IMG/VR virus record: IMGVR_UViG_3300020438_000068
Span: 1-46,603 of that record
Length of the DNA stretch: 46,603 bases
Origin: a virus
Direction: 5' to 3' (one strand)
A model generated the notes under the pieces. That model worked only from the letters and a program-made list of their open reading frames with translations. It ran no database searches and was not told the DNA's origin. This document shows positions 6,367-43,053 of this stretch, one piece after another (within the stretch, counting starts at the first letter, position 1; each line of letters opens with the position of its first letter). The position numbers were made by a program, and so were the translations under genes.

Positions 6367-8169
6367 CTAATCAACCCCCATAGAGTCAAACTCAGCCTTG
6401 ACCGCGTCAAGGTTCACAGTGTTTTCTAAGATGTTTATGGTGCCCGCACTGGCACCCAGGCCAAAAAAGTCATTGAGCATGCCCGCTGGCCCGTTCTGAC
6501 TCTCTTGGGCGTGATAGATCTCACCCTGCTTGGTAGTGGTTGAGTCATAGATAGCAAAAGCTGTGGCACCCTTGGCATCACCGGTTGAGATTGACCCACC
6601 CCAGGCCGTGATCGAGGATATTGGAATTCTGACAAAGGCCTTCTCTGTGCCCGTGGGCACCCTCCCTGAATCCTCGATTGAATAAGGCTGATTTGAACTC
6701 ACAACCACGATATCATTAGGCCAATTGCCCAGGGCTGAATGCCAGACCTGTCCACCGTTTTGGAGCACCATCTCACCCATGTTGTCCCACTCCGTGTTTG
6801 ATGATGGCTGGATCGCCCACGTGTTCTGTGTCGAATTGTTACCAGGTGAAGGGGTGCCGCTAAAGCCTGAAGCGCTGCCCCCAATTCTGGTGAGCTCACC
6901 TCCTACCGCGTCACCATAACAGGCCCCCTGGTACTCAAATTGATCTGAGGCACAGGCCGTGGTGTCAAAGTCTGAGTTACCTGAGACCGCTGAAGCGCTC
7001 AAGCCCATACCGCTGAAAGGCCAGCTTGATGTGGGTGGCTCCGGGAAGAATACGATCCCGTTGGTGGCATTGGCTCTGGCTGTAAACCTAATATAAAGGT
7101 GCCCGCTGTAGAGATAGATCTCCTGGACCCCTCCAGTGGTTGACTCATTCTGGGTGGGCTGATTGGTGGGAAAGCTAGCCGGGAATAGTGGCGGGTTGAC
7201 AAAGATCCCGGTGGGCAGAACCGATGGCCGGATCTCGCTGACTGTCACATCGTGGGGCCTTACGTAGTTGTACCCAATCTCTAAGATCAAACCCTCACCC
7301 GTCTTGGCCTTGGCGCCATACTCTAGGGCGCGTGGGTGTTTATCCTCAGCTGCTGGTGATTGACTGCGATGCACACACTTGAGGGCGCGCACTGGGAAGT
7401 GATCACCCCCACCCATGCCACCTGCCTGCAAGCCACCGGTTGAGGGCTTGAGAATCATGGCCCAGCCCGAGCCGCTGGCAGGATCAATGATATTGCCGCT
7501 GGAATCTTTAAGTCTTAGGGCAATCTTGCACTCATCCCACAAGGATGAGGTGAGCTTGTCATCTGTGCTTAGCCCTGCGTTGGTCCTGTCGTTGTCAACA
7601 TATTGCCTTAGTGAGCTTATGTGCTGAACACTATTCCCACCCGTCAAGCTGATGCCGTTAGCATCTGGGCTGTCCAGGGTTGCAGGCAGACTGTGAGGCA
7701 GACCAAAAAACCAGCTGTACAGGTTTTGACTGGTGGCCCCCGAGGTATACACCCGCGACTCATTAGGGTTGAGGTTGAACTCATGGCCCTGGTACCTGAA
7801 GATCACCTCAAGGGCCTCACAATATGGTGAGGTGTATGGTATCGGGATCTGATCAATCATCAGAACGTTGACACCGTCAAGCTCAATACCGGCAGCAGCG
7901 TGATCCCAATAATGGATCCGGTTAGGGTTTGCCCAGAACCCTGTGTTGTTTGCAGGCCTTAGGCCAGTAGAATCCAGGGGGGCAGCGTCACCGGTTCCCC
8001 AGGGAGAATTGAAAAAATGCTTGAAGCTCAAGCAGGGGTGGTAGGCCAACAGATGGTTAACCACCTCAACCATGCGGGTCAGGGGCTCTGACCTCAGGGG
8101 CCGCCTCCACTCCCTCACTGCCAACTGTGGAGGTGTCAGCCTTGTTTTGCTAATCGGTGTATTGCTCAT
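6367..8169 (-). CDS. Virion protein, probable tail tip or receptor-binding protein
   Basis: A 600-residue protein, Gly/Ser/Asn rich with many beta-like segments and no membrane span, as is usual for tail-tip appendages. It is the last gene of the leftward structural block and is translationally coupled (ATGA) to the large hub protein upstream. No enzyme motif is visible. The N-terminal 100 residues (for example WREWRRPLRSEPL-like basic helix, then beta-rich) may attach to the hub, and the C-terminus probably contacts the host. Its role is inferred from size, composition and position. Confidence 0.65.
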   Translation of the reverse strand: MSNTPISKTRLTPPQLAVREWRRPLRSEPLTRMVEVVNHLLAYHPCLSFKHFFNSPWGTGDAAPLDSTGLRPANNTGFWANPNRIHYWDHAAAGIELDGVNVLMIDQIPIPYTSPYCEALEVIFRYQGHEFNLNPNESRVYTSGATSQNLYSWFFGLPHSLPATLDSPDANGISLTGGNSVQHISSLRQYVDNDRTNAGLSTDDKLTSSLWDECKIALRLKDSSGNIIDPASGSGWAMILKPSTGGLQAGGMGGGDHFPVRALKCVHRSQSPAAEDKHPRALEYGAKAKTGEGLILEIGYNYVRPHDVTVSEIRPSVLPTGIFVNPPLFPASFPTNQPTQNESTTGGVQEIYLYSGHLYIRFTARANATNGIVFFPEPPTSSWPFSGMGLSASAVSGNSDFDTTACASDQFEYQGACYGDAVGGELTRIGGSASGFSGTPSPGNNSTQNTWAIQPSSNTEWDNMGEMVLQNGGQVWHSALGNWPNDIVVVSSNQPYSIEDSGRVPTGTEKAFVRIPISSITAWGGSISTGDAKGATAFAIYDSTTTKQGEIYHAQESQNGPAGMLNDFFGLGASAGTINILENTVNLDAVKAEFDSMGVD

Positions 8170-11100
8170 GTGATCGTGACCCCTCCGATGTAACCATAAA
8201 TAGCGTGAGGCGTTGGGACCGTATCCACAGCTGAGCGCATTGGCACCACAAACCCGATCACGCTTGACCCGCTGGCCGTCAACCCATGGGCAGAGCTCAG
8301 AGTGATGGCAGTATCCGTGAGCGCAGTGATTGTGTGCTTGGTGGCGTTGTCCATGTCTCCAATTGCATGGAGCAACACCTCATCCCCCGTGGCTAAAATC
8401 TTGAACCCTTCAGCGTCAACCGTTTGAGCTCCAGAATGGCGATCTGAGGCGATCACAAGGGTTGTGCTATTGGTCACCCCTGTGACGCTTAGAGATGGCC
8501 CCCAGCCGCTGCCATCAGCCCCATACATTACAAAACGAGCACGCGCACCGGGCTGCCAGCCGTTCTCAGTCAAAGAGCGTAGCCGCACCAGCTCACTTGT
8601 GAGGCCCATTGACTTGACGCCCCTGAGGTGAGGATGAGTGAGGGTGTATGTCCCCCCTACCCTGGCCTGAACACTAAGGCCTGACCTGATTGTCATCTCA
8701 TAGATTCTACGTGGTAAGGCCAGCTCATACCGGAGGCGTGAGAAGATTGGCCGCAATTGGGCCACCCGGCTGAGGTCATTGGCCAGCTCTACCCCTGGAA
8801 GAGGCACGCTGATGGCCTTCTCTTCACCGATGATATCTATGCTGACAGCATCTTTGACCCGCTGCGTCTGGTGACCCCCTTGGGCATCATAGGCAAAATG
8901 AAATTCAAAGACGTTAGCCTTGGCAAGCTCTGTGTCCGATCTTGGGTTGGGATTGCTGGCAATGTCTGCCGTGGTGATGTTGGCCACCACCTGTGCCCGA
9001 TTTGGCAAGCCCAGTGGGACAGCAGCGATCCTGCACTGGCCTGCATCATTGACCACCAGATCAAGCACATACCCACAAGCCCTGAGAAGGCCGCCAATGA
9101 CCTCCTTGATTGACTGCCCTGAACGCCAGACAGGCCGGAACTGAGCATCAGGGATGGGGCTTGTGATGCTGAGGAAGCTGTCAACATCAACCTCAGTGCC
9201 AATGCTGTCAGCGCTGGCCCCCGCCGTTGAACCGTCTGTCAGGCCTGCACCATATGGCAGCCGGTCATAAGTGGATGAGGTGATTGAGTTTCCACCGCTT
9301 GAGCAGAGCAGCTGAAGCAGCACTTCACCAATGGGCGCACCTTGGGCAAATACTGCAGCCGTTTTGAGCTTGATCCTATCCTGGCCAGCGTACTCAGCAA
9401 AGCTCTGCAGCCTCTGGGGCTCTGCCTGGCTGTGGTCCTCAAGATCTGCCAGTGTCAACAGTGTCACAACTGAGCCATCACCCAGCGTGGTGGACGTGGC
9501 AAGGTTGACCTTAAGGATCCCAAGTGGCCCATCTTCTGGGTGCTCAGCCTCAATGAAAAGTGAACCAGCGCTTGGCACGCGGACAGGGCCATCAACCAAC
9601 AGGTAGGTCTCGCCCTCTTGATACCAGGCCCGCGCAATGGTGACAGGGACCTCAACAAATGAGGCGCCAGAGGCACGCGCACCGGGCACCGTCACTGAGA
9701 TGGTGTTGTCGTAGTCTTGGTCACCCACAGCAAAGGCCATATGGCTGAGGGTCTGGGTATGGTCACGCCTTGGGCGGGGCTCAAGATTGCCGCTCTCTAG
9801 CTTCCACCTGTGCTCATACCCCGTGGTGCTGTCAAAGCTCTCATAGGCCTCTGAAGCAAAGCCGCCATCAGCAAAGTGGGCAGTGAGGACACCCTCACCG
9901 AGCACTGAGATGTTGGACATAAACCGCAGGACCCGCGCGTCAAGATCAAGGTACAGCTGCAGCAGGCCACCACCGCCATCAATTGCCTCTTCAGTCTTCC
10001 AGTACGGAGAGTTGAAGCCTTGCCTGAATCCGCCTGAGCCCGTGGCATTAATGGCCTCAACTAAGCCGCTGGGCCAACCCACGATCCTGACTTCACCAGG
10101 GCTTGGTGTTCCCCCACCATAAATGAGGCTGACCTCTCTGATGTGTGAGCCTTCAGCGTTTTTAATTTGTGCCGAATCATTCCCCACAAAAGCACTTGAG
10201 CTCAGGGGGATCTTGTATCCATCACCATCAACCCCCCGCTGTTCAATTGCCTGCAAGTCTGTGAGCTTTATGGCTGGAGCGTCAAAGGCTTGGCCTGCCT
10301 GGGCTCCTGGTGGGGTTTGGGTACCAGCTGGAGCGGTGGCCTTGTAAACCCTGAACGATGGATCGCCACCAGAATCAACCACCAACGGGATCGATAAGGG
10401 GTGATCTGTATCACCAAGATTAGCGTTGTAGATTGCAGTGTAGCGCTCATAACCCACAAGGCTCATCGGTACATACCCAGAGCCGTGCCAGGGGTCATTG
10501 AAAGTGCCAGCAAGCCCGGTCATATTGTTAATCAGTGAACCCTTAGGCGTCCGCTCAAGGAAATCAATCCAATGGCCTGTGCCGTACCCAAAAGCATGAG
10601 CCTTGCTTGAGAGGTGCAGATCTTGGGCCTGGGTGCCCATCTCTAGATCCAAGAGAGCCGTGAGGGGCGAGATCTTAAGGCTGACCGTGGCCACCTTCCC
10701 TGATGTTGAGATCTCAGGCTCTGAAGCCATAAAGCCTCTCCACCGCTCCACCCAGTCAACCCCCGTGCCATCGGCCAGGGTTGTGCCCTCATAGATGACC
10801 GCCCGCCGACCCTTGAAGTATACCGCTGGCTTGGATGCTATCAGTTGGACCTGTGTGCTGGTGTCATATAGATGCTCTGATTTTCGAGTACCCATCACAG
10901 CCCGCTGGACAAGCTCAATGGTCTTGGCTGAGGCGTTCACCGTTCCACAGAGGAATGCCTCTTGACCAATGTGGAGCACATCCCCTGAGCTAAAGGTTGA
11001 GCTTGGATCGCGCTCCATTGTGATAGTGATGGGTGTGGCAGCCGTCTGCCTGATCTCCTGGCCCGGCGCCAGCTCCATTGATGAATCAGCACCAGCAAAA

Positions 11101-11411
11101 CCGAGCCGCCCAAAAACCATGCCAGCATCAAAGCTGTCAGCGTTGCCCTCAAGCTCTTTAGAGCTCAAGACAATCTCAACCGGCCTACATTCGATCACAC
11201 TTTCCCGAACATTGAGCCGACGCTCAAACCTCATGCCCATCTTAGGGACAACAGCAACCCGCCGCTCATAGCTGGTGGCTGTGCCGTTTAGATCATAGGT
11301 TGATGCTGGTGGCTCTACTGACCCATAGAGAACGGGCACGCCTGCAACTTTAAAGTAAAAGCAAGGCCGGCGCTCTTTGCTTACAGTGGGACTGGTGGAC
11401 GTGATCGGCAT
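8166..11411 (-). CDS. Large tail hub/tip protein
   Basis: A 1081-residue protein, the first gene of the leftward run below the Erf island. The N-terminal 350 residues are beta-rich (tail-protein-like), and around residues 740-900 there is a segment with the layout of a tail hub domain (FRPVWRSGQSIKEVIGGLLR, then a long beta region). In siphophages this position and size fit the central tail hub or the lambda J-like host specificity protein. I do not see a catalytic motif. The start ATG lies behind a weak ribosome site. Assignment to the hub is by size, context and composition. Confidence 0.65.
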   Translation of the reverse strand: MPITSTSPTVSKERRPCFYFKVAGVPVLYGSVEPPASTYDLNGTATSYERRVAVVPKMGMRFERRLNVRESVIECRPVEIVLSSKELEGNADSFDAGMVFGRLGFAGADSSMELAPGQEIRQTAATPITITMERDPSSTFSSGDVLHIGQEAFLCGTVNASAKTIELVQRAVMGTRKSEHLYDTSTQVQLIASKPAVYFKGRRAVIYEGTTLADGTGVDWVERWRGFMASEPEISTSGKVATVSLKISPLTALLDLEMGTQAQDLHLSSKAHAFGYGTGHWIDFLERTPKGSLINNMTGLAGTFNDPWHGSGYVPMSLVGYERYTAIYNANLGDTDHPLSIPLVVDSGGDPSFRVYKATAPAGTQTPPGAQAGQAFDAPAIKLTDLQAIEQRGVDGDGYKIPLSSSAFVGNDSAQIKNAEGSHIREVSLIYGGGTPSPGEVRIVGWPSGLVEAINATGSGGFRQGFNSPYWKTEEAIDGGGGLLQLYLDLDARVLRFMSNISVLGEGVLTAHFADGGFASEAYESFDSTTGYEHRWKLESGNLEPRPRRDHTQTLSHMAFAVGDQDYDNTISVTVPGARASGASFVEVPVTIARAWYQEGETYLLVDGPVRVPSAGSLFIEAEHPEDGPLGILKVNLATSTTLGDGSVVTLLTLADLEDHSQAEPQRLQSFAEYAGQDRIKLKTAAVFAQGAPIGEVLLQLLCSSGGNSITSSTYDRLPYGAGLTDGSTAGASADSIGTEVDVDSFLSITSPIPDAQFRPVWRSGQSIKEVIGGLLRACGYVLDLVVNDAGQCRIAAVPLGLPNRAQVVANITTADIASNPNPRSDTELAKANVFEFHFAYDAQGGHQTQRVKDAVSIDIIGEEKAISVPLPGVELANDLSRVAQLRPIFSRLRYELALPRRIYEMTIRSGLSVQARVGGTYTLTHPHLRGVKSMGLTSELVRLRSLTENGWQPGARARFVMYGADGSGWGPSLSVTGVTNSTTLVIASDRHSGAQTVDAEGFKILATGDEVLLHAIGDMDNATKHTITALTDTAITLSSAHGLTASGSSVIGFVVPMRSAVDTVPTPHAIYGYIGGVTIT

Positions 11412-22153: not shown

Positions 22154-23440
22154 CTAGTCAGATGCAGTACGTGCGGCCCCCGCCTCACTGAACGTCTGGC
22201 CAGTAATAAGCGTGGCCTCACGATACTCAGCCCCTGAGGCCTCCCAGCGCTGGACAATCAGATCCACATAGCCGGGATCAAGCTCCATACCAAAGCAGGC
22301 CCGCCCGGTCTCATCTGCAGCCATGAGGGTGCAACCTGAACCCAAGAACAGATCAACCACCAGATCACCATGCTCAGAGCTGTGGCTGATAGCGTGCTTG
22401 GCCAGTTCGATCGGTTTCTCTGTGGGGTGCTCAGTGGTGGCCTTAGACCGTGAGATCTCCCACACGTTCAAAGCGTGGCCAGCCGGCGGAAAATTAAAGC
22501 AATGTTTGCCCCTTGTGCCGTAGCAAATCAGCTCTGTTGCCCAGGTCCAGTGCCGCTTAGCCAGGCTGGGCATGGGGTTTGGCTTATGCCAAACACAATA
22601 AGAGCTATGGCCACATGTTTCAGCCATCCACCCCCAGATCTTGCCAGCTAGATGGTGAGAGGTGCAGACATAGATTGAGCAGGCCTCACCGGCCAGGCTG
22701 TCAATGGCTGGAAATATACCAGTGATGTCAAAACCTTTATCCCAGTCTGAATCCTTTAGCCGCTGAGCCCGATCGCGAATAGATGCCGCTAACAAGGTAT
22801 CTTCAGAGGCGTGATTGTATGGTGGGTCTGTGAAAACCATGAGGGCCTTCTCACCATCCATCAGCGTGGCTACGTCCTTGAGGTCTGTGGCGTCCCCACA
22901 CATAACCCTATGTTCACCCAGCTGCCAGACATCTCCGCGCCTTGTGGTGGGCTTCTCTGGCCTCTCCTCTCCCCCGCTGCCTAGCTTCTCACCATTGGAG
23001 CCCTCAACCATCTCATCAAGGGTGGGCAGGCCTAGCGCGTCCAGCTCTGCAGGGCTCCAGTATTGGTCAAGGTCAAGCCCATCAGCCTGGAGCTCACCGA
23101 GCACATCAGGATCCCACGTGAGGCCAAGCTCTGAGGCCCTGTTGTCCATGATGGCCAGCCCTCTGCCTGCCTCGCTGTCAAGGTCCAGGTCAGTGCGCCT
23201 CACCACCACCAGCTCTGAACCATCAGTCTCAATCACCCGCGCATCATCGAGACCCACCTCAAGTGCTGCCTGCGCTGTGGTATTGCCCGCTATGATTCGA
23301 TTGTTGGCATCAACCAGCAGGGAACGCCCCCCACCATAACGGCTAAGAGAATCAGCCACCATGCCTGCCCCACGGGGTGTGCCCTGGTTAGCATTTTTTG
23401 AGTCTGGCACCAGCTCTGAGATCTTGATTTTCTTGGCCAT
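22154..23440 (-). CDS. ParB-like nuclease domain fused to adenine/cytosine-N4 DNA methyltransferase
   Basis: A 428-residue fusion. Residues 1-125 have a ParB/sulfiredoxin-like fold signature (NRIIAGNTTAQAAL at 47-60). From residue about 165 follow beta-class methyltransferase motifs: GDVWQLGEHRVMCGDA, catalytic DPPY (205-208), HPTEKP (338-343) and the SAM-binding FLGSG (365-369). The order DPPY before FxGxG marks the beta class, which methylates exocyclic amino groups. Such fusions are common phage solitary methylases that protect DNA from restriction or alter regulation. No restriction partner is seen nearby. It leads the head operon. Confidence 0.85.
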   Translation of the reverse strand: MAKKIKISELVPDSKNANQGTPRGAGMVADSLSRYGGGRSLLVDANNRIIAGNTTAQAALEVGLDDARVIETDGSELVVVRRTDLDLDSEAGRGLAIMDNRASELGLTWDPDVLGELQADGLDLDQYWSPAELDALGLPTLDEMVEGSNGEKLGSGGEERPEKPTTRRGDVWQLGEHRVMCGDATDLKDVATLMDGEKALMVFTDPPYNHASEDTLLAASIRDRAQRLKDSDWDKGFDITGIFPAIDSLAGEACSIYVCTSHHLAGKIWGWMAETCGHSSYCVWHKPNPMPSLAKRHWTWATELICYGTRGKHCFNFPPAGHALNVWEISRSKATTEHPTEKPIELAKHAISHSSEHGDLVVDLFLGSGCTLMAADETGRACFGMELDPGYVDLIVQRWEASGAEYREATLITGQTFSEAGAARTASD

Positions 23441-23557: not shown

Positions 23558-24322
23558 ATGAGCAACAAAAACGCAACCCCCCAGAACCCGCCTCAAGGCC
23601 CTAAATTAGAGGCCTGGGCTATGCTTTCAGACGGCCAGAGCATCGCTATGACCGCGAAAACATTGAACATAAACCGGGGGACCGTCCACAGGTGGAAGAA
23701 AAGCAAAGCCTTTCATGCCTGGCACGCTGACAGGTACCTCACAAAAGATAAGCCAAAGGCCAAGGCTGCAGCTAAAAAGGCGAGGAAAGCCAAGCAGCAA
23801 GAGGCCCAGGGGGGCACCGTTCAAAAAGAGGTGGACGTGCAGCCCAACCTCCAGCGAGTGCAACCCCCTGCTCACCTGGACCGTAAGAAGTGGGAGCGCT
23901 TCATTGAGGCCCATCAAGTGGGTGCCCAACATTATGCCAGAGACTATGCCGGGATAGATGAGGACGAAGAGCGTAAATACTTGCTTGAGTTTGCCGCGCG
24001 CTATGCCAGAGCCAACCCACGGGTCAAGGTGCTCAACCGTATGCTGGCCCAAGTCTTTGACCCCAAAACGCCGGCTAGTGTTCGCACTCAGACGGCTATG
24101 CAGTGGTGGAAGATGAGTGAATCAGAGACCGCTCTCAATCCCACTGGACCGCTTGTGCACATCGATGCAACTGGTGGCAGTGATGCTGGTCCACCTCCTC
24201 ATATGGTGGCCTTCTTTGCAGGCATGCAGGAGGTCATGGATGAGGCTGCAGATCTTAAACTCATGGATGAAAGCCAGGGTGATGCGATTAGACAGAAGCT
24301 CAGAGAGAGGGAGCAGGCATGA
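23558..24322 (+). CDS. terS: Terminase small subunit
   Basis: A 254-residue protein directly upstream of the large subunit. Residues 22-55 form a helix-turn-helix (GQSIAMTAKTLNINRGTVHR) as in DNA-recognising small terminases. A Lys/Ala-rich linker (about 60-90) follows, then a helical oligomerisation region. The ATG at 23558 is chosen because the 21-bp promoter-like element lies just upstream; the longer frame starting at 23516 would run through it. It binds the packaging start site on the phage DNA. The stop overlaps the next ATG (ATGA). Confidence 0.75.
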   Translation: MSNKNATPQNPPQGPKLEAWAMLSDGQSIAMTAKTLNINRGTVHRWKKSKAFHAWHADRYLTKDKPKAKAAAKKARKAKQQEAQGGTVQKEVDVQPNLQRVQPPAHLDRKKWERFIEAHQVGAQHYARDYAGIDEDEERKYLLEFAARYARANPRVKVLNRMLAQVFDPKTPASVRTQTAMQWWKMSESETALNPTGPLVHIDATGGSDAGPPPHMVAFFAGMQEVMDEAADLKLMDESQGDAIRQKLREREQA

Positions 24323-25830
24323 ACTCTGAGAGCCACCTCTTTGAGTATGATGAATGGCGCCCCAACCTCATGCAGGCCAAGGTCTGTGCACTATGGGACA
24401 GCTGCAGGCATCCAATCATAGGCCTCATGGCTGGCTGGGGGGCTGGCAAGACCACACTGACCGCCATGATCGCTGAGATCTCCCACCTCAGGAATCCTGG
24501 AATCGACGGTTTCATTGTGACTGATTCAATGAGCCGAGGGGCACGCACTGTGGCCACCCAGTATGAGAGGCTACTAAGCCCACTGGGCTGGGTATACAAG
24601 CACGCCTACAAAGGCCAGCCTGCACCACACTGGTTGAGCCCTCCGCTAAGGGGTAAGCGTACCAAGGTTTGGATCCTGTCCTGGAAGCGCCCAGCTGGAG
24701 CCGCTAAGAGTGCCAATTCTCTTGAAGGGCCTGATTGTGGGTGGGGTGTGGCTGATGAGTGCAACACCTTAGCCGCTGCTGGTGAGGAGGTGGCCATTGC
24801 GATGCTTGGCCGCGTGCGCTCTGCCAAAAAAATGCCCAGGATCCTCCTTATCGGTAAACCCCAGTACAATAGCTGGTGGCTGCGTTTTTCCGAGTCCAGA
24901 CCAGGCGGCAAAGCCATCAAGGCGCCCAGCTCAGTGAACCGGGCCAACCTGCCTGCCTTCGATGAGTGGATGAAGACACTGAGCCGGCGTGAGGTCCTGG
25001 AAAGCCTCCTATGCCAGCCTCAGCCGCCCGAGGGGGCCGTGTACAATGACTGGCTGCCCGAGGTGTACCCCTATGGGAACATTGCCCCTCAGGGCTGGAC
25101 CCCCGACCCATCACAAGTCACTCATCTGGCAGTCGATTTTGGTATGAGGAGCCCTTCAGGGCTCGTGATAACACAGGCCCCTGAGCTTGGCCCCGGCGTC
25201 TCAGTCATTTGGAAGGAGGCAGCACCATCGCAAGCCTCTGTTTTTGACTTAGCCACAATACTCAAAAAAGACCTGAGGCAGATTAATGCCCCACCAGTGT
25301 GGCCTAACAATCGAAATGACGCCCCGCCTGGAGCCATACCCATCACATCAATTGTGGGGGATAGGGCAGGCCGCAACCGGCGTGATGATGGGGCCTTGAG
25401 CTCTAGCATTGACGATTTGAGCCAGGCTCCTGCAGTAGGTGGGCTAGGCCTTAGGTGCAGGTACACAGATGATCCCAAGAGGGTCAACGTGCTTTCTGGA
25501 ATCCGGATATTGTGGCGTCAGATTTGTGACAACTCAGGGACTAGGCGCCTCCTGTGCTCTCATGACCTGTGGCACTATGGTGGAGAGCTCAACGATCGCA
25601 GCTTTGCCGCATGTATCACGGGCTACAGGTGGCAGCCTGGCAGCGGTAAAGAGGTACCGCTCAAGGATGGGATGACAGATCACACCATGGACGCCTTGAG
25701 GTATTGGGCGATCAATACCAAGTGGCCACAAGACCAGCAGCTCAGAAACGCCTTCAACGCCTTTAGGGGTGGGGGTGAATCAATCAGCACAGTGAGCACA
25801 TCGCCAGGGCCTACAGCATTTGACAGGTAG
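24319..25830 (+). CDS. terL: Terminase large subunit
   Basis: A 503-residue packaging motor. Walker A is GWGAGKTT (39-46) and Walker B ends in VADE (144-147). The C-terminal nuclease has LAVDFG (Asp273), IVGDRAG (Asp348) and TDHTMDALRYW (Asp454, Asp458), the usual RNase H-like acidic residues. It translocates DNA into the prohead and cuts the concatemer. The gene is coupled to the small subunit and is the end of a two-gene rightward operon pointing away from the head genes. Confidence 0.9.
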   Translation: MNSESHLFEYDEWRPNLMQAKVCALWDSCRHPIIGLMAGWGAGKTTLTAMIAEISHLRNPGIDGFIVTDSMSRGARTVATQYERLLSPLGWVYKHAYKGQPAPHWLSPPLRGKRTKVWILSWKRPAGAAKSANSLEGPDCGWGVADECNTLAAAGEEVAIAMLGRVRSAKKMPRILLIGKPQYNSWWLRFSESRPGGKAIKAPSSVNRANLPAFDEWMKTLSRREVLESLLCQPQPPEGAVYNDWLPEVYPYGNIAPQGWTPDPSQVTHLAVDFGMRSPSGLVITQAPELGPGVSVIWKEAAPSQASVFDLATILKKDLRQINAPPVWPNNRNDAPPGAIPITSIVGDRAGRNRRDDGALSSSIDDLSQAPAVGGLGLRCRYTDDPKRVNVLSGIRILWRQICDNSGTRRLLCSHDLWHYGGELNDRSFAACITGYRWQPGSGKEVPLKDGMTDHTMDALRYWAINTKWPQDQQLRNAFNAFRGGGESISTVSTSPGPTAFDR

Positions 25831-30609: not shown

Positions 30610-30807
30610 TTTTCCCTCCATTGCCTCGGGGCACCCTGGTGCCCTCTTTTCTCCATCCTCCATTGTAAACACTTTTTTGGGTCAAATGTCTGTCCCTTTT
30701 CTGTCTGCCCCCGTTTTTCCGTGATCTAAATTTGAACAAAATGCTTGATCAAAGTTCCAAAGGTGTGCATGATTCATACACACACACACAAATGGAGGGA
30801 TCCAAAA
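30610..30807. promoter_or_regulatory. Lysogeny switch: divergent promoters sharing TTGATCAA
   Basis: The palindrome TTGATCAA (30745-30752) supplies a -35 in both directions. Rightward: TTGATC, 17 bases, CATGAT (30768-30773), leading to SSB. Leftward: TTGATC, 17 bases, TTAGAT (30729-30724), leading to the repressor. The region also has TTTGAAC and GTTCCAAA flanking it as a loose dyad, the perfect hairpin GGGCACC-ct-GGTGCCC (30628-30643) in the repressor leader, and an AC run before the SSB ribosome site. Confidence 0.6.
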
Positions 30808-32731: not shown

Positions 32732-33087
32732 CAGTGTTCTCAAAAGATCGTGATGTCTGTGAGGCTCTGGGCATTGGGTATTACACCCTGAGGCGCTTAA
32801 GGATGACCGCTGAGGCCAATGGCGTGCCATCGCCTTGCGTTGGTCATGGACGCCTGAGAAGGTGGAGGGGTGGACCAGACCAGTGGTTCAGGTGGTATGG
32901 GGAGGTAACCGCGTGTCAGCAAACATCCAGAAGCGTGGGCTCAAGTACACTGTCCGCTATGTCTTCAGGGGCTTTCAAGGCCGGATTACACTCTCAAGCC
33001 TTAAAGAGGCCCGCAAGATCAAAGCGGAAATTGAGGCAGCCCATGCCCGTGGCATCGACTGGAGACCCGGAGATCGAAATACCCTGA
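32728..33087 (+). CDS. Putative excisionase (HTH), overlapping the integrase gene
   Basis: A 119-residue protein. Residues 5-60 (DVCEALGIGYYTLRRLRMTA, then a wing and WRGGPDQWFRWY) look like the winged helix of MerR/AlpA-type excisionases. From about residue 62 the frame overlaps the integrase gene for 175 bp and turns into a Ser/Arg/Lys-rich tail. Excisionase genes often lie just before int and may overlap it, as in lambda. The role is inferred from this position and the helix-turn-helix. Confidence 0.6.
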   Translation: MTVFSKDRDVCEALGIGYYTLRRLRMTAEANGVPSPCVGHGRLRRWRGGPDQWFRWYGEVTACQQTSRSVGSSTLSAMSSGAFKAGLHSQALKRPARSKRKLRQPMPVASTGDPEIEIP

Positions 33088-34118
33088 GAGCCAGGCTCGC
33101 AGACATTGCCGGGGAATATTTAGACGAGGGGAAAGTTTCCAGAAAACCAGCAACCGTGCTGGGCTGGAGGCAATCCCTGTCCCTATTCCTCCGATTCTTG
33201 AGGACCAAAAAACCAAGGGGAAAGCTGACACCGGACTTGATGACACGTGCCAATCTCACCCAATTCTTTCAGTGGAATTGCGATGTGAGAGGGGTAAAGC
33301 TGGAGACAGCCAGATCGCGCACTGTTCATGTTCTGATGTTTTGGCAATGGGCGTGTGAGAGCGAGGATCATGGTGAGAGCTTCCCCCGCTTTGTTCGCCC
33401 CCCTCTACCATCAAAGCAGGACCCACAGCCGACACGTGCACCCTCATGGGCTCAGTGTGATGCCGTGATCTCTCTGGCCTCATCAAAAAACACCACCGGG
33501 GCACGGTACCACACCAAGATAATGACGATCGCGCGGTACACCGGACTGAGAGCCAGGCAGATCATGGGGCTCAAGTGGGATGATGTAGACATGAAAGAAC
33601 ACAGTCTCAAGGTCCGTGGTGAGCTTGGCAAGACGAGACAGGAGAGGCGAGGCCGCATCATCCCGGTCACTTCCCACCTCATTGCCGACCTGGCTACGTG
33701 GGGAAGGCGAGAGGGCCACCTGATTGACTACCCTGGCAGGGCAAAGAATGAGGTCAGAGAGGCCAGGGGACTACCTATCAACCTCACCATACCCAGCAGG
33801 GGTGTGGCAGGTCACTGGGAGGATACAGGTCTACCACCTGAGCTCTACAAGCAGAGGCCTATTCACTGCTTCCGTAAATCGTTTGCCTCTGAACTTGTAA
33901 TGAGAGGCGCAGACCGCTGGGCTGTAGAGCTCTTGTGTGGTCGCTCCACGGGTATGCATGATGTATATGTTGACCCCTCATTCTTGTGGGGGGCCATGAG
34001 CCAGGCTGTGGGCCTGATTGTCCCAATCGGTGAGGCCTCATGGGATGGGTCAGATCGATTTTTGGGACAACATAGGGACAACACGGGACCACAAAGCAGC
34101 AAGAAGCAGAAACCGTGA
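32913..34118 (+). CDS. int: Tyrosine-type integrase
   Basis: A 401-residue recombinase. I place the start at GTG 32913 because GGGGAGGT lies six bases upstream and the protein then begins with an arm-binding domain (KRGLKYTVRYVFRGFQGRIT). A SAM-like core-binding domain follows (65-150). Catalytic residues are TGLRARQ (Arg213), a candidate Lys240, HCFR (His318, Arg321) and VYVDP (Tyr352). Where most relatives have LGHS, this protein has CGRS, with Arg344 in place of the second His/Trp. It integrates the phage at a host site and excises it with an excisionase. A candidate attP follows the gene. Confidence 0.85.
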   Translation: MSANIQKRGLKYTVRYVFRGFQGRITLSSLKEARKIKAEIEAAHARGIDWRPGDRNTLRARLADIAGEYLDEGKVSRKPATVLGWRQSLSLFLRFLRTKKPRGKLTPDLMTRANLTQFFQWNCDVRGVKLETARSRTVHVLMFWQWACESEDHGESFPRFVRPPLPSKQDPQPTRAPSWAQCDAVISLASSKNTTGARYHTKIMTIARYTGLRARQIMGLKWDDVDMKEHSLKVRGELGKTRQERRGRIIPVTSHLIADLATWGRREGHLIDYPGRAKNEVREARGLPINLTIPSRGVAGHWEDTGLPPELYKQRPIHCFRKSFASELVMRGADRWAVELLCGRSTGMHDVYVDPSFLWGAMSQAVGLIVPIGEASWDGSDRFLGQHRDNTGPQSSKKQKP

Positions 34119-36977: not shown

Positions 36978-39900
36978 TTAGCCCCCGTTCATCCGAAACC
37001 CACCGGGGATCTCTTGTTGTCTGTTGATCTCATCTGTCACGCTCTGCGCGATCTGCCTGCCCAGATGATTGACTCCATCAGAGCTAAGCAGGGCTGGCAC
37101 ATCACTCAAAACGATGTCACCAAACTGGATGCTAGGCCCTCGCCTCTCTTCAAGGTCTGAGGGCTGTGTGCCGCTGCCGCCCATTGTCTGAGCTCCAAGT
37201 GCAGGACCCTGACTGGCTGACCCCCCAGAAGCTGACCCCCCAATCGGTGATGAGTCGGCACGGTAAGCCGCGTCAGCCATCACGCTTGACTGTGCCGCGT
37301 TGGCAGCATGAGCTACACTGGCAGCAGTGTGAGCAATACCCCCCGGAACATTACCGATCGCGAAAGCAGAAAGGGCTAGGGCTGCCTCTGTCGCCGCCAT
37401 AAAGCCACTCATGACCCCCTTTGCGATGATCACCTTTTTCTCTGCATCAAAGGCCGCTCTTGACTGCTCTTCGTATGCCTGTCTGGAAATCTTGCCAGCC
37501 TGTAAATCGGTTTTAGCTGCCTTAAGCCTGGCCTGTCTCATTGAGCTGAGTGAGCCCATGATTGAGGTTATTGACCCACCCACCGCCTGGCCCGTGCCTT
37601 GAATGTCCTGGATAGTGGCCTCATGGGCCTGCCAAACTAGCCGGCGTTTTTCTTCTGCATAGTACTGGTCAATCTGAAGCAATAGATCTGCCTGCCCCTG
37701 GGCAAGCTCACGTTCTGCTCGGTGCTGCTGGTTGAGGTCATTAAGCTGGGCTTGGTAATCATTCCCACCCTGCATGAGCCTACGCTGGCCAATGTCATAC
37801 CGCAGGGCCGCCAGCTGCTCAGCCCGCCTCATTCGATCTTGACGCTCACGTTCTGCCTCTTCAGCTGACTTGGATCGCTTGGCCTCAGCCTGCCTCTCAA
37901 TGAGGGCCTGCTCCTCTGCGTGCTGCCTTTCCAGCATGGCTCCAAGCTCACCCTTTAGAGCGTGCCTCTGCTTAATCTGCTCAGTGTGGTGAAGCCTCAT
38001 CTGTTCAAGCTCAGCCTCATCATGCTTACCTTGAGCCTTGAGCATCAACACACGATCTTGGGCCTCTAGTTGTGCCAGCTGTGCCCGTTGGGCTTCCCTC
38101 TCTACAATAGCTTTCTTTTGGTCATCCGTGAGCGCTGCCCTAGGTGACCCCGTGGGCTTGACAGCTGGTGAGCGCTTGCCCTGATTTGCTATCGCTTTCT
38201 CAGTGGCTGCAACGATCTGAGATGCGCTTTCCCGTGCAGCCTTGGCCGCCTTTTGTGTGTCATCAAAGGCCACAGCCAGATCGCTCAACTCTTTATCAAT
38301 CCGGTTGCGCTCAAAAGGCCGTTGCATCGGACCCACACCCCTGATCCGCGCCTCTGAATCTGCACCCAAAAGCTGGCTCTCACGTGTAATCTGCTGGGCT
38401 TGAGCCTCCAGAGTCTTGGCTTTCTCAAGGGCCTCATTGGCACGGGCTATGGCCACGTCCATTGCAGCCGCCTCACCCCTGCCCCTCACCATCTCACCCG
38501 CCGTCACATAGTCAGCCCGGTCTATAATTCTCCGGCCATCTGCATCACGCCTGCCCTGCCTCTCTGCGATGGGTACCAGCTCGCCCGTGCGGGCCTGAGC
38601 CAAGATCTTGCCACTGTCCTCAATCGAGGACTGCCCGCGATCTGCGAGCATTTGATCAAGCTCACTTTGCTGCTCTTTGACCCTGGCCTCAAAATCATCG
38701 AAGGTTCGCTCTAGCCTGTCAGTGTGGTGGCTGTAGCTTTCAGCCATGCGCTCACCGATCGCGTTGCCGATAAGAGCACCCAGGGCACTCGCTGCAACCA
38801 ACGCCGGACCAATGACACCAGGTGACCTCAGGGCCGTTGTGATCTTGGCCCCAAACCCCATAGAGCCAGCCGCTGAAGCTGCGGCAAACTTGGTGAGCTG
38901 CTCACTGGCTTGAGACACTGAGCTCGCGAATTGGTTTAAGGCCACAGCAGCAAACATGCCCTTCAGGGCCGCCATAATCTTGCCGCTATTCTCAAGGATA
39001 AAAACGCCAAATTCTAGGAAGGTCTCAGCAATGTCAGCAAATCTGCTGGCCATAGCAGGTCCCTCAGTTGCCACCCACTGAGAAAGCCTCTGAAGAGCAT
39101 CATTGACAGCGGGCAATACACTCTCGCCCATACGCCTAAGAATGTCCTCAGAGAGCGCCTTGAAGCGATCTATTGCCCCCTGTGTGTCTGCACTCATCTT
39201 GCCATAAGCGTCAGCGGTTGAGCCTGCTGCATTGCGATTGGCATCAAGCGCTTTAGTGTAGTTTTCCATCCCACCGGCAAGAAGATTGACCACACCTTTG
39301 ATGGCCTCAGCCCTGCGGCCAAAGGTGTTGATCACCTCTGTGTTGCCCTGTGTTTTTTCGAGTACCTGCTCCAGCACCCCTGTCAGGCCCTTGCTCTGCA
39401 GCGCTGTGACGCCGGTCTCAATGCCTAGCTTCTGCATAGCTTTGGCCCCAGGCATCGAATCTGATGCTATGAGCTTCACCACAGCATTCAGCATAGTCAT
39501 AGCTTCGCTGGCTGGGATCCCGCGCTTGGTAAGCGCTGCCAGGCTGGCCCCCATCTCTTCTAGGGACACCCCGTAGCCAGATAGAGCCGCACCCTGACCA
39601 AAGACACCGCCCAGGCTTTCCATTGTGAGGACACCCTCACGCACCGTGCTGAAGAAAATATCAGAGGCCTTTTGAGCGTCGATCCCTTGGTCCCCAAACG
39701 CGTTGGTGGCAGCCGTCAAAAGCTCAACTGATTGTGTGAGACTGCCGCCCGCCGCTACAGCCGTTTTTGATGCTGCTTCTAGAAAGCCCACCACCTCTGA
39801 ACGTGGGATCCCGGCTGATATTGCTTGATAAGCAGCGGTTGAAATATCACCCGCCGTCTGAGGCACGGTGCTGGCAAGCTCAAGCAACCCCTGCCTGAGG

Positions 39901-40235
39901 TCATCAAAAGCCCCCTTAGGCCCAGCCAGCAGTGTCTCAATGCGTGAGAATGAGCGCTCAAAATCGATGGCCAGATTGACCGGGGCTTTGACTGTGCTGA
40001 TAGCCCGCTGAAGTGCAGCAAAGCTAGACTGAAGCACTTGAGCAGCAGAGCCCACAGTGATCAACCCCTGCTGGAACTTGCTGAACCCGCTGGCACTCCT
40101 CTCAACCGCTTTGTCAGTCTTTGCAGTCGAGCCCTCAAGCTGCTGCTGCATTCGGATTATTGAACGGTAGCCCTCAGTGACAAGATCAAGCCCATCTATC
40201 TTGATCTCAAGGACCTCTGTTGACTGTATGGCCAT
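36978..40235 (-). CDS. Tail tape measure protein
   Basis: A 1085-residue protein with the TP901-type tape-measure core in the N-terminal third (INLAIDFERSFSRIETLLAG-like segment, GDISTAAYQAISAGIPRSEV, and repeated ALTKRGIPASEAMTMLNAVV). A hydrophobic stretch lies around residues 440-520, then long Ala/Glu/Arg/Gln-rich coiled coils (about 520-930). Tail length scales with this protein, about 1.5 angstrom per residue, which predicts a tail near 160 nm. It lies just downstream of the frameshifted chaperone, as in lambda. Confidence 0.85.
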   Translation of the reverse strand: MAIQSTEVLEIKIDGLDLVTEGYRSIIRMQQQLEGSTAKTDKAVERSASGFSKFQQGLITVGSAAQVLQSSFAALQRAISTVKAPVNLAIDFERSFSRIETLLAGPKGAFDDLRQGLLELASTVPQTAGDISTAAYQAISAGIPRSEVVGFLEAASKTAVAAGGSLTQSVELLTAATNAFGDQGIDAQKASDIFFSTVREGVLTMESLGGVFGQGAALSGYGVSLEEMGASLAALTKRGIPASEAMTMLNAVVKLIASDSMPGAKAMQKLGIETGVTALQSKGLTGVLEQVLEKTQGNTEVINTFGRRAEAIKGVVNLLAGGMENYTKALDANRNAAGSTADAYGKMSADTQGAIDRFKALSEDILRRMGESVLPAVNDALQRLSQWVATEGPAMASRFADIAETFLEFGVFILENSGKIMAALKGMFAAVALNQFASSVSQASEQLTKFAAASAAGSMGFGAKITTALRSPGVIGPALVAASALGALIGNAIGERMAESYSHHTDRLERTFDDFEARVKEQQSELDQMLADRGQSSIEDSGKILAQARTGELVPIAERQGRRDADGRRIIDRADYVTAGEMVRGRGEAAAMDVAIARANEALEKAKTLEAQAQQITRESQLLGADSEARIRGVGPMQRPFERNRIDKELSDLAVAFDDTQKAAKAARESASQIVAATEKAIANQGKRSPAVKPTGSPRAALTDDQKKAIVEREAQRAQLAQLEAQDRVLMLKAQGKHDEAELEQMRLHHTEQIKQRHALKGELGAMLERQHAEEQALIERQAEAKRSKSAEEAERERQDRMRRAEQLAALRYDIGQRRLMQGGNDYQAQLNDLNQQHRAERELAQGQADLLLQIDQYYAEEKRRLVWQAHEATIQDIQGTGQAVGGSITSIMGSLSSMRQARLKAAKTDLQAGKISRQAYEEQSRAAFDAEKKVIIAKGVMSGFMAATEAALALSAFAIGNVPGGIAHTAASVAHAANAAQSSVMADAAYRADSSPIGGSASGGSASQGPALGAQTMGGSGTQPSDLEERRGPSIQFGDIVLSDVPALLSSDGVNHLGRQIAQSVTDEINRQQEIPGGFRMNGG

Positions 40236-40238
40236 GGT

Positions 40239-40670
40239 CTACCAGCTTTCCTCAGTGCGTGTTTTGTAGGCCCCCGCCGAATCAACTTGGCCCTTGATGG
40301 AGACGATCCCGTCTCTCATCACAGCCGTTGGCATCTCCGTCATCCAGGTGCTTGGGATACCGCTTTGGATCTCAAGCAGTGTGTCAGCAACCTCACCCAC
40401 CCACCCTGAGTGATATTGTGGTGAGCCGGAATCAATCATTGAGAGTGGACAACGGTCCACCTCCAAGAACACGATCTCACCCGTCTCATCAGGCTGACTG
40501 TGAAAGCCCCTGAAGGCCTCCGATGGGCAGGCCGCCCCAAAGATCTCATCCACCGAAATGACCGCTCCGAGCTCAATCATTTCTGCGTTGAATGGACACC
40601 AAGCCAGCCGCGCCCTTGCTCCTGGCAGGGCCGAACTGAGAGGACCACCACAGTTGCCCCTAGCCTCCAT
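40239..40670 (-). CDS. Tail assembly chaperone, -1 frame part
   Basis: A 143-residue frame whose first ATG overlaps the stop of the 40670-41605 gene (TAATG). The frame stays open upstream for another 43 codons to the slippery site at 40799-40805, with no stop and no usual start. The upstream part is Cys-rich (CGQCTGDG), so the natural product is probably the C-terminal extension of the fused chaperone (about 455 residues in all). A separate protein from the ATG is also possible. Chaperones of this kind bind the tape measure during tail assembly. Confidence 0.75.
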   Translation of the reverse strand: MEARGNCGGPLSSALPGARARLAWCPFNAEMIELGAVISVDEIFGAACPSEAFRGFHSQPDETGEIVFLEVDRCPLSMIDSGSPQYHSGWVGEVADTLLEIQSGIPSTWMTEMPTAVMRDGIVSIKGQVDSAGAYKTRTEESW

Positions 40671-41605
40671 TAGGCCCGCCTGCTTTGCTCTGACTCCATC
40701 ACCTGTGCATTGGCCGCAGGCCCAGCCGTCTGCGGGGCTCTTTGCCCGCTTTCTGGCACGCCCTTGCCAGGCATAGAGAGCGCAGAGCAGGCCCCCGGTT
40801 TTCCCAGGGTTGAAAGGTTCCTTACATGCCTAGCCACCTCAGTGACAACCGACTCAGCCTCAACACACTGATTGATGAACTCAGCAACCGGAAACCGTCC
40901 ACCCTCCATGAAAAGGGGGAAGCCTCCCACCTCCTCAACAGACAAAGAGAACAACTCACAATCACGATCAAAGCTCCAGTTTTCAAAGTCGTCTATTGCT
41001 TTTTGATCTTTGGCCGGGAGAGCTGACACATATGAGCTGTATGCCTCACCTGCATCTTCCCCCCTCCGCTGTGCACGCCTTGCCACATCTGAGGCCCTTG
41101 AAAACTGGAGCTCACCAAGGGCAGGCTTGAGCCTGTAACCTCGATCAAACTTCCTCAAGCTCTCCTTTGTCAGTGGCTTAATGTGCACACCCGTGGCCTC
41201 TGCTGGGTCCGGGTCAAGCAAGTCTGTGAGGTCTGAGGATTCACGATATTGGGCAGCCGCTGCCTGTGCCCTCACCCATGCCAGGGCTGTCCTCATATCC
41301 TCCTCAGAGAGAGCATCACGCAGCTTGCCCGCTGCCTTGATTTGCTCCTCTCCCTCAAAAATCTTGGTGATAACCTCGGCGCCTGCAACCCTTATGGCTG
41401 TTAAAGCCTTGGTGATGTCTGCGCCCGGTCCAGCAGAAGCCCGGACCGCACGCAGCATCTCACCTAAAAGGTCGTTCTCACTGGCATCTTCAAGGTCAGC
41501 ATCAACCAGCCTGCGAGCCTTAGCAATCTGGGCTTGCCAGACAGCCGAATCACAGAGCAGCACTAACCTCTCAGCCCCTCCAACACTGGTGAGTTTTTTA
41601 AGCAT
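40670..41605 (-). CDS. Tail assembly chaperone, zero-frame product
   Basis: A 311-residue helical protein between the tail tube and the tape measure. It has the place and role of lambda gpG. Residues 1-269 are shared with a longer frameshift product. After the slip site the zero-frame tail is low-complexity (SGQRAPQTAGPAANAQ), while the -1 frame continues in protein-like sequence. The segment FDRDCELFSLSVEEVGGFPL near the slip site is shared by both forms. It should coat the tape measure until tube polymerisation. No domain is recognised by motif alone. Confidence 0.75.
   Translation of the reverse strand: MLKKLTSVGGAERLVLLCDSAVWQAQIAKARRLVDADLEDASENDLLGEMLRAVRASAGPGADITKALTAIRVAGAEVITKIFEGEEQIKAAGKLRDALSEEDMRTALAWVRAQAAAAQYRESSDLTDLLDPDPAEATGVHIKPLTKESLRKFDRGYRLKPALGELQFSRASDVARRAQRRGEDAGEAYSSYVSALPAKDQKAIDDFENWSFDRDCELFSLSVEEVGGFPLFMEGGRFPVAEFINQCVEAESVVTEVARHVRNLSTLGKPGACSALSMPGKGVPESGQRAPQTAGPAANAQVMESEQSRRA
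40799..40805 (-). other. Programmed -1 ribosomal frameshift site
   Basis: On the - strand the heptamer reads G GGA AAA in the phase needed for tandem slippage (X XXY YYZ): GGA and AAA are codons 268 and 269 of the 41605 gene. After a -1 slip the frame is open through the whole 40670-40239 gene. Lambda G/GT uses the related G GGA AAG in the same gene position, between the tail tube and the tape measure. Confidence 0.8.
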
Positions 41606-41610
41606 TTATC

Positions 41611-43053
41611 TTAGGCCTTTTTTGGTAGAACCAACATGAAAGGGGCCTTGGCAAGTGCAAGGTCACCAGCTGCCACACCCGTGAGATTTGCGATCCCACT
41701 TTCTTGGATTGCCATCAGCTGAGTTGTCTGCTGGATGCGTCCCTCATCACCGGCCACTGGGTTGCTCTCCCCATCTGCACGCCCGCCGTTCAAAAGAATG
41801 AATGCCGCGCCTTGACCACCGCTGGTGCTGCTTGGCCCCATTCCTAAGATAAGGGTCCTGCGCTCTTCACCCACCAGCATGCGCTGTAGGTCTGTGTCTG
41901 CCTCAGTGGTGAGGGATACGGTGCATCGAGCATCATTAACCTCAGCCGCTGTGCTGCGTAAAATCCCAGTGGTCGAGGGAGATGAGGGGGCAATGTCAAA
42001 TTCAACGTCACAGCTCCAATCAAAATTAGCTTTCTCAGTACGCGCTAGGCTGACCCCACCAGCGGCAGCGCCCGTGTGATTGGCGGCCAAGTCGACCCGC
42101 GCCCCATAACGCATCTGGGCGAGCTTTCCAGGGGGCTCAGCCGTGGCCACAGTCTCAGCTGAGGCACCATCATTGGTGACTACAACACCAGGCTTGACGC
42201 TCATGGTGAGGCTGGCACCTAGGTTGTCTTGAGAGATGCTGAAGCCGGAACAGCGAGCCAAGCAGGCTACACGCTCAACTGATGCGTCTGTCCCGCTGCC
42301 GCCCATGGAGAATTTCACAAAACAATCAAGTGACTTTGCATTTGCCGCCCCAATGACAGGATAGAAGGCATAACAAAGCTCTATCGCATCACCCTGCATC
42401 ACCTGGCTAGTCCACCGTGGGTGAACCTTGACAGTGGTGTCAGTACCATCACTGCTCATGCTTGTGACAACGGCATATTCATGTGCAATGGCGTTGGTTT
42501 TTCGCCTTCTCACTGGAGCGCCTATTTTCAGAAACCCGGCATCAGAATCACTCACGATGAAGGTGTCACCGTCAGCGCCAACCGCGTTCTCACTGGCAGC
42601 AATTGAGGTGGGTGATGCATTGCCTGGATCATGAAGCCCCATAGAGGTGCTGAGGATTCGGCCAAAGCCGTACTTGAGAGGGTCACCACCTGCAGCCGTC
42701 CTGAAGCGATGGCTGACAGAGACATCATCCGTATAGAAGGCTCTAATGAAAGTATCGACAGGCGCGTTAAACTTCTCAGATCCAGTGGTATTGACCACCC
42801 CGATAGGACTAGGAATCTGAGCACCTGCGGTCATCCCACCATGATCCTCTTGATGGAAGGCCTCAGAGCCAGCGGTGAAGGCTTCAACGCTTGCCCGCGT
42901 GGTAGCCATGCCCGCAAATTGATTGATCGTAGCCTCAGCCCCTGCAGCTGGGTTGGCTGGGATCTGAGGTAGAAGGTTGCTGTCTGCGTCTGCAGACCCT
43001 GCAGCGCTGATGGCCACAGAAACTGAATAAATATTTGAGCTCTTGCCGCTCAT
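41611..43053 (-). CDS. Major tail tube protein
   Basis: A 480-residue beta-rich protein, Gly/Ala/Ser/Thr rich, with an AGGAG ribosome site. Its position after the tail terminator and before the chaperone is that of the tail tube subunit. At 480 residues it is longer than the roughly 200-350 residues of many tubes, so it may carry an added surface (Ig-like) domain; the region around residues 300-400 is a candidate. It should be among the most abundant virion proteins. Confidence 0.75.
   Translation of the reverse strand: MSGKSSNIYSVSVAISAAGSADADSNLLPQIPANPAAGAEATINQFAGMATTRASVEAFTAGSEAFHQEDHGGMTAGAQIPSPIGVVNTTGSEKFNAPVDTFIRAFYTDDVSVSHRFRTAAGGDPLKYGFGRILSTSMGLHDPGNASPTSIAASENAVGADGDTFIVSDSDAGFLKIGAPVRRRKTNAIAHEYAVVTSMSSDGTDTTVKVHPRWTSQVMQGDAIELCYAFYPVIGAANAKSLDCFVKFSMGGSGTDASVERVACLARCSGFSISQDNLGASLTMSVKPGVVVTNDGASAETVATAEPPGKLAQMRYGARVDLAANHTGAAAGGVSLARTEKANFDWSCDVEFDIAPSSPSTTGILRSTAAEVNDARCTVSLTTEADTDLQRMLVGEERRTLILGMGPSSTSGGQGAAFILLNGGRADGESNPVAGDEGRIQQTTQLMAIQESGIANLTGVAAGDLALAKAPFMLVLPKKA

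Follow-up and report, generated by a model that had tools for sequence, protein, structure and literature searches.

A predicted lambda G/GT-like -1 frameshift at a conserved GGGAAAA heptamer links two tail assembly chaperone frames without catalogued relatives

In the viral DNA analysed here (IMG/VR record IMGVR_UViG_3300020438_000068, a stretch of 46,603 nucleotides referred to as the window), two overlapping reading frames, G and T, lie between a gene in the tail tube position and the tape measure gene (Table 1), and this locus very probably makes G and a G-T fusion (GT) from one start by -1 ribosome slippage at the heptamer GGGAAAA, as in the G/GT pair of phage lambda. The heptamer falls in phase near the end of G, and its sequence, phase and position are shared by six related phages, in which the -1 frame is conserved from the slip point onwards. 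The G and T proteins match no catalogued family, and the locus is very probably a new member of the lambda G/GT arrangement, an orphan by sequence.

In the proposed mechanism, two tail assembly chaperones would be made from a single start in the manner of lambda. Most ribosomes would pass G GGA AAA without changing frame and stop 42 codons later to release G (311 aa), and a minority would slip back by one base, with GGA and AAA re-pairing to GGG and AAA, and read 186 more codons in the -1 frame to produce GT (455 aa). Tandem tRNA slippage from GGA, AAA to GGG, AAA is the standard reading of such a site. By analogy, G would coat the tape measure and T would recruit tail tube subunits, with its invariant cysteines possibly binding metal; the occurrence of slippage, its rate, these binding roles and the metal are what we infer from the observed arrangement.

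Table 1. Positions of features in and around the G/T locus, numbered along the window.
Feature	Position	Strand	Evidence
G, the frame-0 ORF of 311 codons, a predicted tail assembly chaperone with a fold at residues 10-268 and a disordered tail beyond	40670..41605	-	
Slippery heptamer G GGA AAA	40799..40805	-	6/6 family members, same phase
T extension in the -1 frame, joined to G residues 1-269 and adding 186 residues and a stop beyond the slip	40239..40799	-	
Dual-coded overlap of the poorly conserved Ser/Gly/Pro/acidic tail of G in frame 0 and the well conserved beginning of T in the -1 frame	40671..40798	-	Pairwise identity, pLDDT
CxxC (CGQC) of T, invariant Cys 30 and 33 counted from the slip Gly; upstream of ATG 40670	40707..40718	-	
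Invariant Cys 52 of T, RGxC context	40650..40652	-	
Invariant Cys 70 of T, WC context	40596..40598	-	
Invariant Cys 119 of T, RCP/KCP context	40449..40451	-	
ATG that overlaps the stop of frame 0 (TAATG); not kept as a start in relatives	40668..40670	-	
Tape measure protein, directly downstream of T	36978..40235	-	PHROG tape measure families, E down to 9e-42; PF10145
480-codon gene upstream of G, tail tube protein by position and synteny only	41611..43053	-	Neighbour conserved in all six

The geometry of the site can be read from the sequence itself. In the ORF begun at ATG 41605, the codons from 267 onwards are CTG GGA AAA CCG, which places G GGA AAA in zero-frame phase at codons 268-269, as an earlier note on this DNA had claimed; all of the coordinates given in that note were reproduced from the sequence with scripts. 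Past the heptamer, frame 0 continues for 42 codons to a TAA that overlaps ATG 40670. In the -1 frame, no stop occurs between a point 24 nt before the heptamer and TAG 40241-40239. A frame scan confirmed this for the 43 codons from 40799 to ATG 40670, and the open -1 frame of the window holds no ATG, GTG or TTG ahead of 40670. The length of the predicted fusion, put at about 455 residues in the note, was computed as 455.

Within the single genome, GGGAAAA is found 3 times on the minus strand and 4 times in the whole window, and two copies, the slip site and one at 30616, are in phase within minus-strand ORFs of at least 100 codons. The second (30616-30610, minus strand) looks incidental and serves as a negative example: the ORF around it resembles an HTH regulator gene, and its -1 frame is closed by a stop after 5 codons. 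Under random draws from the codons of this gene, an open -1 stretch of 43 codons has a p of about 0.019. Taken alone, these numbers are only suggestive of a real site; the case for a frameshift rests on the relatives.

The family comprises the window and five relatives (L005, L016, L028/L032, L029/L033 and L037), which were found by searches with the T, tape measure and tube proteins as queries, none of which used the heptamer. L005 was found with the -1 frame protein, to which it shows 56% identity across the whole T extension, the stretch before the ATG included, and the four others were reached via the tape measure and tube proteins. The G proteins of the relatives share 36-50% identity with that of the window, and in three records checked by profile T directly follows G, with the two homologies abutting at the slip site. 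GGGAAAA is present in the same phase in all six phages, where it always spells the end of an invariant Leu-Gly-Lys and is the sole in-phase XXXYYYZ motif within the usable shift window. Given Leu-Gly-Lys, codon usage would spell GGGAAAA with a chance of about 0.02 per phage, or about 4e-11 for six if independent, a figure that overstates the evidence because the six phages are related and are not independent samples.

Protein conservation changes frame at the same point. Just upstream of the site, frame 0 has a mean pairwise identity of 40% (last 60 residues) and the -1 frame is broken by stops; in the overlap downstream, the -1 frame has 46% (first 44 codons) as opposed to 25% for frame 0, which becomes a Ser/Gly/Pro/acidic tail, and the -1 frame retains 42% after these 44 codons. 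The structural model of G is confident up to residue 268, the slip point, with a pLDDT under 50 and predicted disorder from residue 269. Since frame-0 conservation drops from 40% to 25%, the -1 frame is conserved from the site and the G model ends at 268, the switch falls on the heptamer. None of the five relatives has lost the heptamer and none carries a -1 frame stop before 40670, the two observations that the earlier note had named as speaking against a frameshift. Its proposal that slippage joins two tail chaperone frames is thus supported by strong comparative evidence, namely heptamer, phase and -1 conservation in 6/6 phages, with slippage and chaperone role both predicted.

Alternatively, T could be made as a protein of its own from ATG 40670, through stop-start coupling at TAATG, with the heptamer being incidental. 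The TAATG overlap is present in the window, and L016 has a TTG overlapping the frame-0 stop (TTGA) at the equivalent place; however, the residue aligned to ATG 40670 is Ile or Glu in the other relatives, and once frame 0 has ended, the next ATG, GTG or TTG of the -1 frame lies >50 nt downstream in L005 and L037, beyond the CxxC. The conserved -1 coding also begins 43 codons upstream of the ATG, where the window offers no possible start, and the heptamer is invariant, leaving a separately started T highly improbable. A search across the six family members found no start codon for T common to the group. In L005, a -1 frame ATG (L005:4983-4985) that is seen in no other relative lies 9 nt before the heptamer and is a possible extra internal start for T.

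Because ATG 40670 is not conserved and a product begun there would be without the invariant CxxC (encoded at 40718-40707), T is read as an extension of G and not as a second gene, and the locus appears better described as having one T extension than as having a joined second gene. This bears on the statement in the earlier note that the -1 frame runs through the whole next gene: the frame is indeed open to 40239, but the "next gene" has no start of its own in the relatives.

Polymerase slippage normally requires longer homopolymer runs. If RNA polymerase and not the ribosome slipped at the G/A run, the same -1 protein would result, and transcript slippage is used by some bacterial genes (PMC5009743); yet the run here is only GGG AAAA and what is conserved shows precisely the X XXY YYZ phase of a tandem slip, so that this explanation seems still more remote than a separate T. 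A sequencing or assembly error splitting one true ORF, which is possible for any single contig on its own, is barely credible when the same two-frame layout recurs in six distinct contigs, at 36-56% protein identity to the window, and frame 0 continues for 19-43 codons past the site in each.

Stimulatory elements that might assist ribosome slippage were sought around the heptamer. Pseudoknot-free RNA folding downstream, a check of the kind that the earlier note had proposed, gave no significant or consistent structure (z-scores from -1.7 to +0.7 across the six phages), and the consensus structure across the family alignment was weak. A stem-loop in the window was considered, as the downstream fold (-34.3 kcal/mol) ranks 2nd of 62 windows, but was rejected: with a z of only -0.7, its stability reflects base composition. 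An upstream Shine-Dalgarno-like stimulator was likewise set aside, since AGGA lies 13 nt upstream of the heptamer in only 3/6 phages. A search of Rfam gave one chance match, far below cut-off.

The nearest known counterpart is the lambda G/GT system, which has the same layout of tube, G, T and tape measure genes, an X XXY YYZ slip site late in G and a -1 extension that reaches as far as the tape measure gene. The lambda heptamer was correctly given in the earlier note as GGGAAAG and, when compared with GGGAAAA here, lies in the same phase. The two systems differ in that the part of G before the slip is about twice as long here (GGA is codon 268, as opposed to 134 in lambda), and no sequence similarity was detectable in the searches run. 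The extension had been called unusually long and Cys-rich; its length is only modestly greater (T runs 188 codons from the slip Gly, as opposed to 146 in lambda), whereas the cysteine content does stand out relative to lambda T, which has none, the T described here having seven, five of them invariant (Table 1).

Shifting between G and T has been described as widely conserved among long-tailed phages (PMC5009743), and GGGAAAA itself has been reported as the slip site of Microbacterium phage Bush (PMC11749239) and of TM4 (PMC4626039, citing Xu et al. 2004). These actinobacteriophage chaperone pairs have the same heptamer, -1 direction and gene role as the locus described here, but their proteins are not recognisably related to its G and T, as tblastn with these two queries returned nothing from 50,697 phage records. 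With lambda, Bush and TM4 as precedents, the mechanism and the heptamer were already known and the difference lies in the protein; the cysteine-bearing extension is the only distinctive feature.

No match for G or T was found in Pfam or PHROG, and searches of the PDB by sequence or fold gave no significant match linking either to known chaperones; for G, structural hits reached a Z of no more than 7.3 and were generic helical bundles. DNA and protein searches against the 50,697 phage records yielded no relatives, weak ribonucleotide reductase matches (E 0.08) being rejected, and scans of genome contigs for relatives found none. The T model has a low-confidence pLDDT of 56, and a structure search with it was uninformative.

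The cysteines of T are spaced CxxC-x18-C-x17-C, which suggests a metal site. It may even be that the frameshift-only T is a metal-binding module with four or five Cys, so that tube recruitment would depend on a metal site carried by the few slipped chaperone copies, although this reading is tentative and on balance doubtful. We know of no metal-binding tail chaperone domain of this kind in any characterised phage. The cysteine-bearing T domain offers a testable contrast to the cysteine-free one of lambda, and the locus would be a divergent case in which slip site and dual coding are kept although sequence comparison no longer recognises the proteins. It also provides a firm annotation rule, namely one joined G/GT gene and not two, for a group of phages that has few matches in databases.

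Elsewhere in the window, two large ORFs (8166-11411, minus strand; 24319-25830, plus strand) have no PHROG match, the latter being terminase large subunit-like by eye. A ParB-like domain fused to a DNA methyltransferase (22154-23440, minus strand; PHROG 498, E 6e-82) adjoins the portal gene. An integrase is encoded at 32835-34118 (plus strand; PHROG 1, E 7e-25), and the phage is therefore probably temperate.
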